In this document: piece by piece, positions 18,306 to 28,014 of the stretch | Position numbering within the stretch: position 1 is the first letter of the stretch | How the letters are laid out: the number at the start of each line of letters is the position of its first letter | Assembly: GCF_007559335.1 (NCBI RefSeq) | Contig: NZ_VMBG01000001.1 | Location: forward strand, 558,001 to 622,000 | Direction: 5' to 3' | From: Rariglobus hedericola | Lineage (GTDB): Bacteria; Verrucomicrobiota; Verrucomicrobiia; Opitutales; Opitutaceae | Length of the DNA stretch: 64,000 nt | Position numbers and translations under genes: made by a program | Notes under the pieces: model-generated | The model's database searches: none | Told to the model about the DNA's origin: nothing | The model's input: the letters and a program-made list of their open reading frames with translations, nothing else

Positions 18306-19724
18306 TCAGATCCGCTTCTGCTTCCACTTGCCGCGGCGGAAGAGCACGCCGCTCCACAGTGTGAGCACGGTGAACGAGACAGGCACGGCGATGTAAACGC
18401 CGAGGGGGCCGAGTCCGAGTGGTTGTGCGAGGAGCCAGGCGAGCGGGACTTGTCCGCACCAAAAACAGAAAAAATTGAGGCGCGTGGGTGTGGCGGTGTC
18501 GCCGGAGCCGTTGAACGCGCCTTCGAGGCACATGCCGATCGCGTAGAGCGGGAAGGCGACGCTCACGATCCAGAGCGCGCGCACGCCGTGGGCGAAAACC
18601 TCGGGGTCTTGCGTGAAGAGACCGACGATGGGGCGGGCGAAAACGATGAACACGAGGCCGACGATGCCGAGGAGGGCGGCGTTGAACTTGGCGGCGATTT
18701 TCACGGCGGCGGCGGCGCGGTCGGGTTGGTTGGCGCCGAGGTTTTGGCCGACGAGGGTTGAGCCGGCGTTGGCGAGTCCCCAGGCGGGCATGAGGGCGAA
18801 GATGATCACGCGGATGGCGATGGTGTAGCCGGCAAGCACGGGGCTGCCGAAGATCGCGAGGATTTTGAAGAGGCCGACCCAACTGGTCGTGGCGATGAGC
18901 ATTTGAGCGATGCCGTTGCCGGACGTGCGGATGATGACGAGGAGGCTCTCGGCGCGCGGGCGGAGGTCGGACCAACGAATGCGGATGTGGCTGGGTTTGC
19001 CGGTGAGGTGCCAGAGTTGGTAAAGCACGCCGATACCGCGACCGATGTTGGTGGCGACGGCGGCGCCGGTGACGCCCAGCTCGGGGAACGGGCCCCAGCC
19101 GAAGATGACGCACGGATCGAGAATGAGGTTGAGACTGTTCGCCAGAATGAGCGTGCGCATGGCGAGCGAGGCGTCGCCGGCTCCGCGGAAAATGGCGTTG
19201 ATGACGAAGATCAGGAAGACGGTGGCGTTGCCGCCGAGCATGACGCGGGCGTAGTCGGTGCCTTGCGCGACGACGGCGGGGTCGGCTCCCATCAAGCGCA
19301 GGATGTCGCCGGCAAACCAGCCGCCGACGAGGCCGATGCCGGAGGCGAGCGTGATGCCGAGGACGAGGATTTGGCCGGCGGCCTGCGCGGCGAGGGCGGG
19401 ATTTTTTTCACCGATGCGGCGGGAGACGATGGCGGTGGCGGCGAAGGAGATGCCGATGGCGACCGCGAAGATGAGCGACATGACCGACTCGGTGAGGCCG
19501 ACGACGGCGATGGCGTCGCGTCCGAGACGGGCGACCCAAAAGATGTCCACAACGGTGAAGAGCGACTCCATGAGCATCTCCAGGATCATGGGGACGGCGA
19601 GGAGCAGGACGGCGCGGTTGAGCGGGAGCGCGGTGTAGTCGTGTTGTTCGCCACGGAGGGCCTGGGCGACGCTGCGCCAGAAGGATTGCGCGGGCGGGGA
19701 GGACGAGATGGCGGGGGCGGACAT
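18306..19724 (-). CDS. MATE-family efflux transporter
   Basis: 472 residues from the ATG at 19724; the frame runs back to 19802 but that would overlap the sigma-factor gene by many codons. Twelve membrane helices form two halves, with the typical first-helix segment PL...AVPMILEMLMESLF and WVARLGRDAIAVVGL. The family exports drugs or metabolites using Na+ or H+ gradients. It begins 10 bases after the ECF42-type sigma gene and is probably in the same transcript (DGPF protein, sigma factor, MATE). Confidence 0.92.
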   Translation of the reverse strand: MSAPAISSSPPAQSFWRSVAQALRGEQHDYTALPLNRAVLLLAVPMILEMLMESLFTVVDIFWVARLGRDAIAVVGLTESVMSLIFAVAIGISFAATAIVSRRIGEKNPALAAQAAGQILVLGITLASGIGLVGGWFAGDILRLMGADPAVVAQGTDYARVMLGGNATVFLIFVINAIFRGAGDASLAMRTLILANSLNLILDPCVIFGWGPFPELGVTGAAVATNIGRGIGVLYQLWHLTGKPSHIRIRWSDLRPRAESLLVIIRTSGNGIAQMLIATTSWVGLFKILAIFGSPVLAGYTIAIRVIIFALMPAWGLANAGSTLVGQNLGANQPDRAAAAVKIAAKFNAALLGIVGLVFIVFARPIVGLFTQDPEVFAHGVRALWIVSVAFPLYAIGMCLEGAFNGSGDTATPTRLNFFCFWCGQVPLAWLLAQPLGLGPLGVYIAVPVSFTVLTLWSGVLFRRGKWKQKRI

Positions 19725-19734
19725 GGAGATTGTA

Positions 19735-21033
19735 TCAGGCGTAGTCTTCGGCGCGTTCGAGTAGGCGGGCGAGATGGGATTGTTCGGGGCCGACTTGGGC
19801 AAGGGCGAGGGCGCGGCGATAACTCTCGGCCGCGGCGCGGTGATTGTTCAGGCGGGTGTGGAGTTCGCCGGCCACGGCATGGAATAGATGAAGCGAGTCC
19901 AGGCGGTCCGAGTGGGCGATGGATTCAAGCGCGTCGAGTCCGGCTTGCGGGCCGTGGACGTGGGCGACGGCGACCGCGCGATTGAGCTCAATCACGGGCG
20001 ACGGTTTCAGGGTGAGGAGGAGATCGTAGTGGGCGAGGATGCGCGGCCAGTCGGTCGAGGCGGCGTCGGGCGCGGTGCAATGGAGCGCGGCGATGCCGGC
20101 TTGGAGGTGGTATTCGCTGGCGGTTTCGCCCTGCGCGGCGGAGGCGAGGTGTTGGAGACCTTCGTTGAGGAGACGGGCGTCCCACTTGGAACGGTCCTGT
20201 TCATCAAGGCGGAGGAGTGCGCCTTGGTCGTCGAGACGCGAAGGGAAGCGGGCGCTGGTGAGCAGCATGAGGGCGAGCAACGCGTGGGTGCGCGGCGTGC
20301 GGCCGGCGGGGTGGGAGAGCAGCAGCGTGGTCAGGCGGATGGATTCGCGGCAGAGGTCTTCGCGAAGCAAGCGATCGCCGGAGGAGGCTTTGTAGCCCTC
20401 GTTGAAGAGGAGGTAGAGCGCGGCGAGGACTCCGTCGAGACGTGGGGCAAGATTTTCGGCTTCGGGGAGTTCGAAGGCGATATTGGATTCCTGGATACGC
20501 TGTTTGGTGCGGGTCAGTTGTTTCTCGATAGCGGGTTCGCTGGCGAAGAAAGCGCGGGCAATTTCGCCGGTGCTAAAACCGCAGAGGACTTTGAGGGCGA
20601 GGATAACCTGGGCGTCGGGCGCGATGGACTGATGGCAACAGACGAATAGGAGGCGCAGGGCGTCGTCGCGGATCGTGTGTGATGAATCGCTGGCGACTGC
20701 GGCGGGCGACGGGAGGGTCTGCTCGATGTGCGTGATGATCGCCGGTTCCTTGGCGGCCGACATGTTGCGGTGGCGCAGGTGGTCCTTGGCGAGGTTCATG
20801 GCCACGCGAGTGATCCACGCGGATGGGTTGGGCGGGATGCCGCCCATTGACCATGTGCGCAGGGCGCGAAGAAGGGCTTCCTGCGCGATGTCCTCGGCGA
20901 GCGAGAGGTGGTTGACGCCGAGCAGGCGCACGAGCGCGCCATGGAGGCGTCCGGTTTCGTGGCGGAAGAAATGCTCCACGAGGCCCGACGGCGTGTGGGA
21001 CGCGAGCGGCGGAATGGGGTCCGGGAAAGCCAC
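19735..21033 (-). CDS. ECF42-type sigma factor with C-terminal TPR-like extension
   Basis: 432 residues. Sigma region 2 lies at about 20-90 (AEDIAQEALLRALRTW, then PSAWITRVAMNLAKDHLR) and region 4 at about 130-185 (GFSTGEIARAFF.SEPAIEKQLTRTKQRI). A long helical extension of about 240 residues with TPR-like repeats follows (LNRAVAVAHVHGPQAGLDAL). This architecture, plus a DGPF-domain gene immediately upstream, is diagnostic of group ECF42, where the extension is needed for activity and no anti-sigma factor is used. It starts 8 bases after the DGPF gene. Three matching promoter motifs are found in this locus. Confidence 0.93.
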   Translation of the reverse strand: MAFPDPIPPLASHTPSGLVEHFFRHETGRLHGALVRLLGVNHLSLAEDIAQEALLRALRTWSMGGIPPNPSAWITRVAMNLAKDHLRHRNMSAAKEPAIITHIEQTLPSPAAVASDSSHTIRDDALRLLFVCCHQSIAPDAQVILALKVLCGFSTGEIARAFFASEPAIEKQLTRTKQRIQESNIAFELPEAENLAPRLDGVLAALYLLFNEGYKASSGDRLLREDLCRESIRLTTLLLSHPAGRTPRTHALLALMLLTSARFPSRLDDQGALLRLDEQDRSKWDARLLNEGLQHLASAAQGETASEYHLQAGIAALHCTAPDAASTDWPRILAHYDLLLTLKPSPVIELNRAVAVAHVHGPQAGLDALESIAHSDRLDSLHLFHAVAGELHTRLNNHRAAAESYRRALALAQVGPEQSHLARLLERAEDYA

Positions 21034-21041
21034 GGAGGTTT

Positions 21042-21431
21042 TCAGGATTTCTCCGAAGTCGTGGTCACGCCGAGATGGCAGTCGGCCACCATGGAGCGGA
21101 CCTCGATGACGAGACCGTATTCGAGACCGGGGTGGGCGTTCGCGATGGCAATGGCTTCGTCGAGTCCGCTGACGCGGAGTTTTACGTAGCCGCCGACGGA
21201 TTCCTTGGTTTCGGAAAACGGGCCGTCCACGACGCGTTGGTGCGCGGGGCCGGAAACAACGTGGATTTGCGCTTCGAGCGGTTGGCCCTCGGTGGCTTTA
21301 CCCTGCTTCAGGAGGCCTTCGAACCAGGCGTTCCAGCGGGTGATGAGTTGCTGGCGTTGATCGGGCGAGAGGTGCTGGTGGTTCTCCGGGCCGGTGTTCC
21401 GGAAGAGAAGCATGTAAGGTTGGGTTTCCAT
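21042..21431 (-). CDS. DGPF/YCII-related domain protein
   Basis: 129 residues from the ATG at 21431. The typical N-terminus (PYMLLFRN) and the name-giving motif VVDGPFSETKESVGGY near residue 70 are present. The fold is the dimeric alpha/beta barrel of YCII proteins, with unknown biochemical role. DGPF genes are the hallmark partner and target of ECF42 sigma factors. The motif matching the locus promoter (-10 at 21443-21438) would start transcription almost at the ATG, so the transcript may be leaderless. Confidence 0.9.
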   Translation of the reverse strand: METQPYMLLFRNTGPENHQHLSPDQRQQLITRWNAWFEGLLKQGKATEGQPLEAQIHVVSGPAHQRVVDGPFSETKESVGGYVKLRVSGLDEAIAIANAHPGLEYGLVIEVRSMVADCHLGVTTTSEKS

Positions 21432-21437
21432 GTGATT

Positions 21438-21466
21438 ACAACGAGTCAGGGAGGCTGGAATGGACA
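21438..21466 (-). promoter_or_regulatory. Putative ECF42 promoter, minus strand
   Basis: On the minus strand TGTCCA (21466-21461), a 17-base spacer, then CGTTGT (21443-21438). The same bipartite motif with the same spacing occurs twice on the plus strand in this locus. It directs transcription into the DGPF-sigma-MATE operon, which would make the sigma factor self-activating. Confidence 0.65.
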
Positions 21467-21492
21467 CGAATTCAGGGAAAGGGTAAGTTTTG

Positions 21493-21521
21493 TGTCCGGA
21501 ACGTCGGACGCCGTTCGTTGA
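21493..21521 (+). promoter_or_regulatory. Putative ECF42 promoter, before DUF1428 gene
   Basis: TGTCCG (21493-21498), a 17-base spacer, then CGTTGA (21516-21521). It shares the longer frame TGTCCGG-N12-CGTTCGTTGA with the site at 22144. Transcription would start about 50 bases before the DUF1428 start. Confidence 0.7.
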
Positions 21522-21575
21522 CTATTTGAAGACGTCATTACGACACACGAAAAACCTCAAACCAAGGAGATCATC

Positions 21576-21938
21576 ATGGCTCGCTACGTAGATGGATTTG
21601 TCATTCCCGTTCCGAAGAAAAAACTCGCGGCATATTTCCGCATCGCGGCAAAAGCGTCCAAGATATGGAAGGAGCATGGCGCTTTGGATTATGTGGAGGC
21701 GGCGGGCGACGACTTGAATATCAAGATGTGCATGACCTTCACCAAAGGTATCAAAACCAAGGCGGGCGAAACCGTGGTGTTTTCTTACATTACGTTTAAA
21801 TCGCGCGCCCATCGCGACAAGGTGAACGCCAAGGTCATGAAAGACCCGCGCGTTCATGAGATGTGCAACCCCAAGGATATGCCGTTCGACTGCGCGCGCA
21901 TGCTTTACGGTGGTTTTAAAGTCATGGTGTCGGCCTGA
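21576..21938 (+). CDS. DUF1428 (YbaA-like) protein
   Basis: 120 residues. The N-terminus ARYVDGFVIPVPKKKLAAY and the later KDPRVHEM and MPFDCARMLYGGF segments are characteristic of DUF1428, a small dimeric alpha/beta-barrel family related to the YCII/DGPF fold. The ribosome-binding site AAGGAG at 21564-21569 sits six bases before the ATG and fixes the start. First gene of the plus-strand arm of the ECF42 locus, divergent from the DGPF-sigma operon. Confidence 0.9.
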   Translation: MARYVDGFVIPVPKKKLAAYFRIAAKASKIWKEHGALDYVEAAGDDLNIKMCMTFTKGIKTKAGETVVFSYITFKSRAHRDKVNAKVMKDPRVHEMCNPKDMPFDCARMLYGGFKVMVSA

Positions 21939-21949
21939 GCGGGCATGGC

Positions 21950-22159
21950 ATGAACACGGCGAAGGCACGGAACTTGATGACCGAACTCGGGGCGTTTCAG
22001 CGTGAGCTGGAAACGCTGGGTTTTGCGCTGGATTCGCGCGGAAGCCGGGAGGCGGCCGATGTCGCTTTGACGGCTTCGGCGCGCATCGGAGCGTTGCGTG
22101 AAGAGTGCGAAGCTGAAGATTATCCGGAAAACGATGTCTGCGCTGTCCGGATTGCGTAG
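21950..22159 (+). CDS. Small hypothetical protein
   Basis: 69 residues beginning 12 bases after DUF1428. The sequence is helical (ARNLMTELGAFQRELETLGFAL) with a Glu/Asp-rich C-terminus. No family recognised. Its 3' end contains the -35 part of the next putative ECF42 promoter. Confidence 0.5.
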   Translation: MNTAKARNLMTELGAFQRELETLGFALDSRGSREAADVALTASARIGALREECEAEDYPENDVCAVRIA

Positions 22160-22172
22160 GGTCGTTCGTTGA
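22144..22172 (+). promoter_or_regulatory. Putative ECF42 promoter, before DoxX-like gene
   Basis: TGTCCG (22144-22149), a 17-base spacer, then CGTTGA (22167-22172). The extended match to the site at 21493 is seven bases on the left and ten on the right, with identical spacing. It implies a leader of about 13 bases for the DoxX-like gene. Confidence 0.7.
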
Positions 22173-22191
22173 ACTTGCACGAAACCTTATC

Positions 22192-22590
22192 ATGAAAATC
22201 TCACGTATCCTTCCTGTGGTCGCGCGCTGGCTGCTCGGCTTACCGCTGGTGGTCTTTGGACTGAATCTGTTCTTTAATTTTATTCCGCAACCGGAAGTTC
22301 AGCTGCCCGAAAAAGCGGCGGCATTTGCCGGAGCACTGGCGGCGAGCGGCTATATGATGCCGATGATCGGACTCACGCAGCTCGTCGTAGGCGCGCTGTT
22401 GCTGGTCAACCGGTGCGTGCCGCTGGCGCTGCTGTTGTTTGCCCCGTTCATCGTGAACAGCGTCGCGTTTCACGTTTTCCTAGAGCCGTCCGGCCTTCCG
22501 ATGGCGTGCGTGTTTCTCGCCGTGCATCTTTACCTCGCGTGGGTTTATCGGGCCGCGTGGCGTCCGCTGTTCGGGAAAACGGAAGTCTGA
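22192..22590 (+). CDS. DoxX-like membrane protein
   Basis: 132 residues with four membrane helices (about 7-25, 42-66, 72-92, 100-120) and the family-type segments LLGLPLVVFGLNLFF and GLTQLVVGALLL. DoxX/DoxD-like proteins are common members of oxidative-stress and ECF-controlled loci; no enzymatic role can be assigned here. It is followed 12 bases later by an SRPBCC gene. Confidence 0.8.
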   Translation: MKISRILPVVARWLLGLPLVVFGLNLFFNFIPQPEVQLPEKAAAFAGALAASGYMMPMIGLTQLVVGALLLVNRCVPLALLLFAPFIVNSVAFHVFLEPSGLPMACVFLAVHLYLAWVYRAAWRPLFGKTEV

Positions 22591-22602
22591 AAACTAGAAT
22601 TT

Positions 22603-23142
22603 ATGCTTAAGAAAATACTCTTGGTCGCGGCTGTGCTTGTGACGGTGTTTATCGTCGTGGTGGCGATGCAGCCCGCCGAATTTCGCGTCGCGCGCACCAC
22701 GGTGATCGCGGCGTCGCCTGCGACGGTGTTTGCGAAAGTCAACGATCTGCGCACGTGGCAGGAGTTCTCGCCTTGGGCCAAGATTGATCCGAATGCCAAG
22801 GCGACGTTTGCGGGACCGCAGACGGGAACAGGTTCGTCGTTTACATGGGTGGGCAATAGCGAGGTGGGCGAGGGCACGATGACCATCGTCGAGAGCCGTC
22901 CGCATGAACTGATCCGGTTCAAACTGGAGTTCGTGAAACCATTTGAGGGGACGAACGATGCGGAGTTTACGTTCAAGCCGGTCGATGCTCAAACCGAAGT
23001 CACGTGGAGCATGAGCGGGAAGAACAACTTTTTCTTCAAGGCGGTCGGGCTGTTCATCGACTGCGAGAAGATGATCGGGCCGCAGTTCGAGGAGGGGCTG
23101 GCGAATCTCAAGGCGTTGTCGGAGGCGCCGGCAAAACCGTGA
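22603..23142 (+). CDS. SRPBCC-family protein with N-terminal membrane anchor
   Basis: 179 residues. An uncleaved signal-anchor helix lies at about 5-22. A START/SRPBCC fold follows: ASPATVFAKVNDLRTWQEFSPW near 38, GTMTIVESRPHELIRFKLEF near 92, and a terminal helix FEEGLANLKAL. SRPBCC proteins bind hydrophobic ligands. Such genes are frequent targets in ECF42 loci. Probably co-transcribed with the DoxX-like gene. Confidence 0.85.
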   Translation: MLKKILLVAAVLVTVFIVVVAMQPAEFRVARTTVIAASPATVFAKVNDLRTWQEFSPWAKIDPNAKATFAGPQTGTGSSFTWVGNSEVGEGTMTIVESRPHELIRFKLEFVKPFEGTNDAEFTFKPVDAQTEVTWSMSGKNNFFFKAVGLFIDCEKMIGPQFEEGLANLKALSEAPAKP

Positions 23143-23151
23143 GAGCCCCGA

Positions 23152-23607
23152 TCACGTTTGATTGAAGAGTCGGGAGACGGCCTGCCGACGGTAGTCGAAG
23201 ATGCGATGCAGCGTGCGATGCACCCACAGGGCGTGAACGAGATCGCCCAGCAGTCCGAAGCGGAGGGCGTAGGTGACGCGGTCGGTCATCTGCACGCCAC
23301 CGTCAACCGGCGTGAAGTGATGTTCATGATACCAGAGCCGGTAGGGGCCGGCGCGTTGTTCATCGACGAAGAACGCGCCTTCGCGCACGTGGCGGATTTC
23401 GGTGAGCCAGCGCACGCGCACGCTGGGGGCGACGCGGATGCGATAGGCGATCAGCTGGCCTTGATACATGGCGGGTGGCGCACCGAGGATTTCGAAATGC
23501 ATCTCGGGAGGTGTGAGAGCATTCAGATTTTCGGGAGTAGAGAAGTAGAGCCAGACGCGCTCGATGGGCGCGGGAATGAACTGAGTGCGCTCGAGGGTGT
23601 GGATCAT
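23152..23607 (-). CDS. SRPBCC-family protein (ligand-binding/cyclase-like)
   Basis: 151 residues from the ATG at 23607, which overlaps the preceding stop (ATGA); the frame extends to 23745 only as a shadow of the upstream gene. The start MIHTLERTQFIPAPIERVWLYFS...NL..LTPP is the standard N-terminus of cell-division-inhibitor-like SRPBCC proteins. It has LTEIRHVREGAFFVDEQRAGPY and a closing helix with RTLHRIFDYRR. It resembles the N-terminal half of the fusion protein at 37008. Convergent with the membrane-anchored SRPBCC gene. Confidence 0.85.
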   Translation of the reverse strand: MIHTLERTQFIPAPIERVWLYFSTPENLNALTPPEMHFEILGAPPAMYQGQLIAYRIRVAPSVRVRWLTEIRHVREGAFFVDEQRAGPYRLWYHEHHFTPVDGGVQMTDRVTYALRFGLLGDLVHALWVHRTLHRIFDYRRQAVSRLFNQT

Positions 23608-24095
23608 GGCTTGTCGCCATAGAGGGAGTGCGTGCGGATTTTTTCCGCAAGCTCCCAAGAGCGTTTGATCTGCGTGGCCTCTTGTTTGGCGCTGCTGACG
23701 TAGTGCAGCAACGAACGTTGACGGCCTATTGTGAAGGTTTCCCACCGGGCGAGGGCGGCTTCGTCCTGGTCAAGAACGAGCGCAAAGACTTCCGGCATGT
23801 CGAGTGCGTCGGGCGTGGGATCGGGTGAAAGCGAAACCGTGGCCGTGGATCGAAGCTTGAGGCCGCAAGTTTTGAGCAATTCGCCGCCGACGATGAGAAA
23901 ACTACCGCCGTCGGCGTGGTTTTGAAGGGCACGTCTGCAGGTGTGTCCATTGATGACGGCGATGAGACGGCGGACACCAGCGGATTTAAACGTGGCCGCC
24001 ACATCATCCGGCACCGGCAGCGCGTGATAGCGCATACCGGTGTCGAGACGAATAATAGTCGATATGAACTGAACAGAGGAGGTGCGTTTCGGCAT
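23604..24095 (-). CDS. DUF1905 + YdeI/OmpD-associated two-domain protein
   Basis: 163 residues from the ATG at 24095; an ATG at 24119 is possible but overlaps purL. The N-terminal half is a DUF1905 beta-barrel (YHALPVPDDVAATFKSAGVRRLIAVING). The C-terminal half resembles the YdeI/OmpD-associated domain (ALARWETFTIGRQRSLLHYVSSAKQEATQIKR). The combination is seen in bacterial proteins of unknown role. It lies just downstream of purL and overlaps the SRPBCC gene by four bases. Confidence 0.8.
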   Translation of the reverse strand: MPKRTSSVQFISTIIRLDTGMRYHALPVPDDVAATFKSAGVRRLIAVINGHTCRRALQNHADGGSFLIVGGELLKTCGLKLRSTATVSLSPDPTPDALDMPEVFALVLDQDEAALARWETFTIGRQRSLLHYVSSAKQEATQIKRSWELAEKIRTHSLYGDKP

Positions 24096-24111
24096 GGCTC
24101 CAGTCGGTCCG

Positions 24112-28014
<3,903 letters not shown>

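Follow-up and report, generated by a model that had tools for sequence, protein, structure and literature searches.

Three copies of a promoter-like motif lie around the gene for an ECF42 sigma factor of Rariglobus hedericola (Opitutaceae), which raises the question of which factor reads these sites and how far the corresponding regulon extends. The DNA analyzed here (hereafter, the window) is a stretch of 64,000 nucleotides; positions count from its first letter. The relevant features are:

18306..19724, minus strand: MATE efflux transporter, third and final operon gene (start ATG placed at 19724 by reading)
19735..21033, minus strand: ECF42 sigma factor with sigma-2, sigma-4, DUF6596 and a C-terminal extension
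21042..21431, minus strand: YCII (DGPF) protein, leading gene of the operon (PF03795, 8.2e-9; residues VVDGPF)
21438..21466, minus strand: putative promoter of the YCII-sigma-MATE operon (-35 TGTCC, 21466-21462; -10 CGTTGT, 21443-21438; predicted start 21431)
21493..21521, plus strand: putative promoter of the DUF1428 gene (-35 TGTCCGG; -10 CGTTCGTTGA; predicted start ~21528)
21576..21938, plus strand: DUF1428 protein (PF07237, 1.2e-37)
22144..22172, plus strand: putative promoter of the DoxX-SRPBCC operon (-35 TGTCCGG; -10 CGTTCGTTGA; predicted start ~22179)
22192..22590, plus strand: DoxX-like membrane protein (PF07681, 2.7e-4, just under the curated cut-off)
22603..23142, plus strand: SRPBCC (Polyketide_cyc2) protein (PF10604, 1.8e-13; 12 nt after the DoxX gene)

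The sigma factor and the three sites

The sigma factor matches PF04542 (2.8e-10), PF08281 (1e-5, just under its cut-off) and the NCBIfam sigma70-ECF model (above cut-off). Residues 198-300 of its 432 match PF20239 (DUF6596; 2.3e-36), which we take to be the marker of ECF42, and this is the sole DUF6596 match in the genome. A C-terminal extension of about 200 residues, present here, characterizes ECF42 factors, whose activity depends on it and in which it is rich in TPRs; Pfam at 0.001 reported no TPR family for the window's protein. The YCII gene, with its DGPF residues, adjoins the sigma gene. Of the 56 sigma loci examined, 5 have a MATE gene after the sigma gene, so this gene is not a fixed part of the operon.

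An exact search for TGTCCR-N17-CGTTGW recovered the three occurrences reported by a previous sequence-only reading of this DNA, at the positions and on the strands listed above; in 100 dinucleotide shuffles of the window the motif appeared 0.04 times on average and never three times. The longer frame TGTCCGG-N12-CGTTCGTTGA, said to be common to both plus-strand sites, was likewise found by a search of the window, and comparison with gene starts places the three sites, as claimed, before the DUF1428 gene, the DoxX-SRPBCC operon and the YCII(DGPF)-sigma-MATE operon. A sigma-70 scan of 21300-23300 returned no promoter-like site (0.6 expected), so no housekeeping alternative is seen in this region.

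Two other features of the locus deserve mention. A possible 69-codon ORF (21950-22159, plus strand) lies between the DUF1428 and DoxX genes, its end overlapping the -35 element of the third site; the alignment with the relative G010 differs at the beginning of this ORF. Beside the predicted regulon, SRPBCC-like and OmdA/DUF1905 genes (23152-24119, minus strand) belong to similar families, with no exact motif match upstream.

As detailed below, these three sites are very probably promoters read by RNA polymerase with the adjoining ECF42 sigma factor, which would transcribe its own operon, the DUF1428 gene, the DoxX-SRPBCC operon and at least three distant genes.

Further sites in the genome

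A scan of the 4.15 Mb genome with TGTCCR-N17-CGTTGW gave six matches, compared to none for the pattern read backwards. Apart from the sites in the window, matches at C3:157455 and C3:143962 precede VOC (glyoxalase-like) genes by 24 and 30 nt, respectively, and the match at C1:2114244, inside a long ORF, is probably due to chance. With TGTCCY also permitted, one more site appears at C1:354573; an AHSA1 gene begins 45 nt further on. Thus, the genome holds six good sites: those of the sigma factor's own operon, DUF1428, DoxX-SRPBCC, AHSA1 and two VOC genes. Two of the nine Glyoxalase domain matches in the genome, and one of the five AHSA1 matches, lie directly behind a site; another of these five, under the cut-off, is the SRPBCC gene behind DoxX in the window.

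Several looser matches were set aside. The pattern TGTC-N(18-20)-CGTTGW, with 60 genome matches against 25 for its backward control, was rejected as too loose. TGTCC-N17-TCGTYGW yielded nine matches (2 in the backward control). The matches with CGTC at C1:404687, C2:288617 and C2:917283 were not counted because inspection by eye (ORFs of at least 100 codons) revealed no gene of a target family downstream; nor was C1:373020, with a spacing of 20, where the next ORF resembles, on visual inspection, a PEP-CTERM protein.

Conservation of the sites and their predicted target genes

All three sites of the window recur in G010, which is 88% identical over 4.6 kb. The 29-base sites differ at 3, 0 and 6 positions, respectively, all of them in the spacer, so that the DoxX-SRPBCC site keeps its boxes amid six spacer changes. 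In the DUF1428 site, TGTCCGGAACG and CGTTCGTTGACT are identical in four genomes (the window, G010, G004 and G009), and the minus-strand site has a homologous site in G010, G004 and G009.

Across 56 relatives, TGTCCR-N17-CGTTGW had 100 matches versus 52 in the backward control (sums of the table), an approximately twofold and therefore noisy excess, and accordingly a stricter form, TGTCCR-N15-TTCGTTGW (the strict motif), was used for counts across genomes. In 120 genomes of the family, the strict motif occurs at 79 sites, compared to 2 for the backward control, and 29 genomes have it.

The enrichment near similar genes, whose absence would have counted against the sequence-only reading, was found: 63 of the 78 strict sites with a testable downstream gene (the remaining one, L175, is at a contig end) precede the same few families, namely VOC, AHSA1/DoxX, YCII, DUF1428, RibD_C and SRPBCC sequence clusters. 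In 200 trials with random positions in the same loci, the average was 5.3 and the highest count 13; this control has some circularity, as the reference proteins were drawn from the observed sites and served for the random positions as well. The median distance from the -10 element to the ORF start over the 63 sites is 30 nt; where this distance is -4 or 4 nt, the start used is an alternative codon lying in the motif or next to it. The other 15 sites precede genes for MFS (two) and GFA (two) proteins and one each for MATE, DUF899, an ABC transporter, SDR, an aldo-keto reductase, DUF1801 and a BNR-repeat protein, and four (L123 at 10969, L124, L129 and L184) have no family match. In one locus (L015:1575-3029), an AHSA1 target gene is followed by a DUF899 gene on the opposite strand; a DUF899 gene also follows a site in L160.

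Association with one clade of ECF42 sigma factors

DUF6596 was detected in 45 of the 120 genomes (62 matches). The strict motif is present in 26 of these 45 genomes versus 3 of the 75 without DUF6596 (p = 3e-11, with related genomes entering as non-independent samples, as they do in all motif-sigma tables). In a tree built from 56 of the 62 sigma genes (four of the six left out were fetched later; G034, which is partial, and a second gene of G032 stayed outside the examination), all 27 TGTCC-type operons fell in one clade and four of the five TGTCG calls in the other, the fifth (L215) being an isolated match. The window's clade, assigned by hand, comprises 30 rows and 31 genomes, G018 being included on the strength of its second gene, which shares 72% identity with a clade member. 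The strict motif was found in 25 of the 31 genomes of this clade, and so is missing from six, versus 4 of the 89 others.

The four genomes with the strict motif and no detected clade sigma factor are G068, G069, G084 and G104. For three of them, G084 (L139/L227), G068 (L144/L229) and G104 (L190/L228), no DUF6596 sigma factor was detected at all; other members of the genera of G084, where a site precedes a YCII gene, and of G104 have one. Possible readings are loss of the gene, an assembly gap or cross-talk.

Proposed autoregulation and two types of -10 element

The proposal that the sigma factor activates its own operon together with two other transcripts is supported as a prediction by a motif that tracks ECF42, by recurrent target families and by conserved sites. 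The autoregulatory part of this proposal is backed by position and conservation. A YCII gene lies just upstream of 44 of the 56 sigma ORFs according to a seed search that overlooked G010; in that genome (locus L185), the YCII frame before the sigma gene is interrupted by one in-frame stop, and the sigma gene is open. Within 250 nt before YCII, TGTC-N19-CGT occurs in 30 of these 44 operons in the sense orientation and in 24 on the divergent strand; 500 base shuffles averaged 0.7 and never exceeded 5. Smaller spacing peaks were seen at N15 (13) and N22 (11), of which the N15 peak corresponds to the first CGT in CGTTCGT.

The 30 own-operon promoters favour TTT/CGTCGT and the 24 divergent target promoters GGA/CGTTGA. 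The ratios for own-operon versus divergent sites are 15:10 versus 1:21 for T:G at position 7 (p = 5e-5), 19:9 versus 5:18 for C:T after CGT (p = 0.002) and 22:5 versus 3:19 for T:A at the last -10 base (p = 2e-6), where rows with other bases are left out of each comparison and the p values are optimistic because the sequences are related. The minus-strand site of the window is mixed in type (ATT, CGTTGT), does not fit the stricter TTCGTTGW form and is the least like the other two (CTCGTTGT).

Only 6 nt separate the end of this site from the YCII start codon (A at 21431). For SMc01149 of Sinorhizobium meliloti, transcription was mapped to begin at the ninth base past CGTC (PMC6180224, Table 1); the same offset, applied to the minus-strand site, makes position 21431, the A of the YCII start codon, the predicted first base of the transcript. 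By this projection, the YCII transcript of the window should be leaderless, and the predicted leaders of the DoxX and DUF1428 transcripts would measure 13 and 48 nt, respectively; in G004 and G009, extra bases between the -10 element and the YCII gene predict a leader.

It could be that the two plus-strand sites are targets of the sigma factor and that the minus-strand site, the least typical of the three and leaving no leader, is not used for autoregulation. The S. meliloti YCII-sigma operon did not respond to RpoE10 overexpression (PMC6180224); since the YCII gene was not raised there, autoregulation is less sure than the other parts of our proposal. Nevertheless, the homologous sites in three relatives and the sense-strand matches in 30 of 44 YCII operons make an unused minus-strand site unlikely.

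Other possible readers of the motif

If not the adjoining ECF42 protein, another ECF sigma factor, above all ECF41, might use these promoters, and the genome does hold an ECF41-like gene. We find this highly improbable. The sigma factor of the window scores 34.8 bits against TIGR02957, which we take to be the ECF41/SigJ model and whose cut-off is 323.25. The genome's own ECF41/SigJ-like gene (G000:C3:111017-111868; L230:1518-2369) contains one in-frame TAG and so is probably broken or affected by an assembly error. Within the window's clade, the motif is present in 10 of the 11 genomes without a strong ECF41 match and in 15 of the 20 with one, whereas it was found in none of the five genomes (hand count) that have a strong ECF41 match and no clade sigma factor. 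The S. meliloti ECF41 promoter does have the same TGTC-N19-CGTC layout (PMC6180224, Table 1), but the published ECF41 -35 element, TGTCACA, is called group-specific (PMC3426412) and differs from the TGTCCR of the window sites.

That the motif is the binding site of a DNA-binding regulator instead of a promoter is hardly credible: no inverted repeats were found in 21380-22260, the strand relative to the gene and the spacing are fixed, with the median distance to the ORF start given above, and the layout equals that of S. meliloti ECF42 promoters (PMC6180224). Chance matches, suggested by the one genome match inside a long ORF and the noise of the looser form in relatives, are already refuted by the expectation of 0.04 in the window and by the strict motif, with 79 sites versus 2 control sites across the 120 genomes.

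The fifth -35 base and the sigma-4 helix

The -35 element of the window sites is TGTCC, with C as the fifth base. In the sigma-4 helix, the window's clade mostly has E170-K171-Q172 and the other clade mostly A-Q-R. Residue 171 was compared with the fifth base in 133 sigma genes from the family and from a cross-phylum set, the latter being the best 80 of a longer list (L232-L234, whose contigs match those of L122, L134 and L211 in length, were dropped as duplicates). The promoter dyad was found in the stretch from -620 to -330 for 46 of the 133 genes and for none of the other 87. Among these 46, Lys171 goes with C in 33 cases and with G in one, and Gln171 with G in nine and with C in one; two further rows combine K with T and A with G, and the exceptions are L215, L243, L283 and L308. 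The Lys171/TGTCC side includes the window's clade, other Verrucomicrobiota and Bacteroidota (Chitinophaga, Mucilaginibacter, Pedobacter, Dyadobacter); the Gln171/TGTCG side includes Pseudomonadota, Acidobacteriota, Chloroflexota and the second sigma clade of the window's family. Because the tree of this sample has one deep split, the association is consistent and not replicated, one event being seen many times.

We tentatively consider a broader scheme, possible though rather doubtful as a whole, in which ECF42 promoters come in two dialects set largely by residue 171, Lys171 reading TGTCC and Gln171 reading TGTCG, and a single sigma factor of the window's clade would additionally read two -10 dialects, mostly CGTCGT at its own operon and CGTTGA at its targets, yielding graded output. 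A single helix residue linked to a promoter base is directly testable.

The predicted regulon

When activated, this ECF42 factor would drive its own YCII-sigma-MATE operon, creating what we infer to be positive feedback. It would also transcribe the DoxX-SRPBCC pair, the DUF1428 gene on the divergent strand and, farther away in the genome, at least two VOC genes and one AHSA1 gene. The sigma-4 helix (...AIEKQLTRTK...) would read the -35 TGTCC and sigma-2 would read CGTT(G), and the C-terminal extension, perhaps with the YCII protein, may restrain the sigma factor. Judging from the families of the targets (VOC, SRPBCC, DoxX and efflux), the signal may be a toxic small compound, hydrophobic or reactive. 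In this way, YCII, DUF1428, DoxX-like, VOC and AHSA1 proteins, many of them of unknown role, would be tied into one response, and ECF42, a widespread and poorly understood group, gains a concrete and broad predicted regulon in Opitutaceae.

Comparison with known systems

A literature search on the motif, on an Opitutaceae ECF regulon and on YCII/DGPF regulons found no earlier description besides PMC6180224, and passages of PMC8103513, PMC9205884, PMC10880074, PMC9023288 and PMC5507510 contain nothing on the motif. Such an ECF42 subgroup may already be listed in the 2021 ECF reclassification. Compared with the ECF42 promoter TGTC-N19-CG(T/A)C, the window sites have the same layout and spacing, with C as the fifth -35 base and CGTT as the -10 element. 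For Streptomyces venezuelae ECF42, work by Liu from 2018 reportedly gave the promoter TGTCGA...CG(A/T)C and essentially DGPF targets, unlike the TGTCC element and broad target set predicted here. The S. venezuelae factor also has a long C-terminal extension and lies beside YCII/DGPF genes (PMC8999054).

ECF41 regulons resemble the one described here in a C-terminally extended sigma factor, a -10 CGTC and a neighbouring target gene, and differ in the -35 TGTCACA and the COE target (PMC3426412) and in the SnoaL-like extension (PMC9023288). The closest counterpart is RpoE10 (ECF42) of S. meliloti, with promoters of the form TGTCGG-N17-CGTC, that is, TGTC-N19-CGTC, which bears out the statement in the sequence-only reading that published ECF42 promoters have a TGTC-type -35 element; six responding genes are reported, and genes whose expression rose when RpoE10 was overexpressed encode glyoxalase-like and hydrophobic-ligand domains (PMC6180224). 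The two systems share the TGTC-N19-CGT layout, a YCII gene before the sigma gene and similar target domains, and differ in the boxes themselves, TGTCGG/CGTC in S. meliloti and TGTCC/CGTT here (PMC6180224). Collectively, this is a known kind of system, an ECF42 sigma factor with its regulon, that has a variant -35 element and a target set broader than in the literature found.
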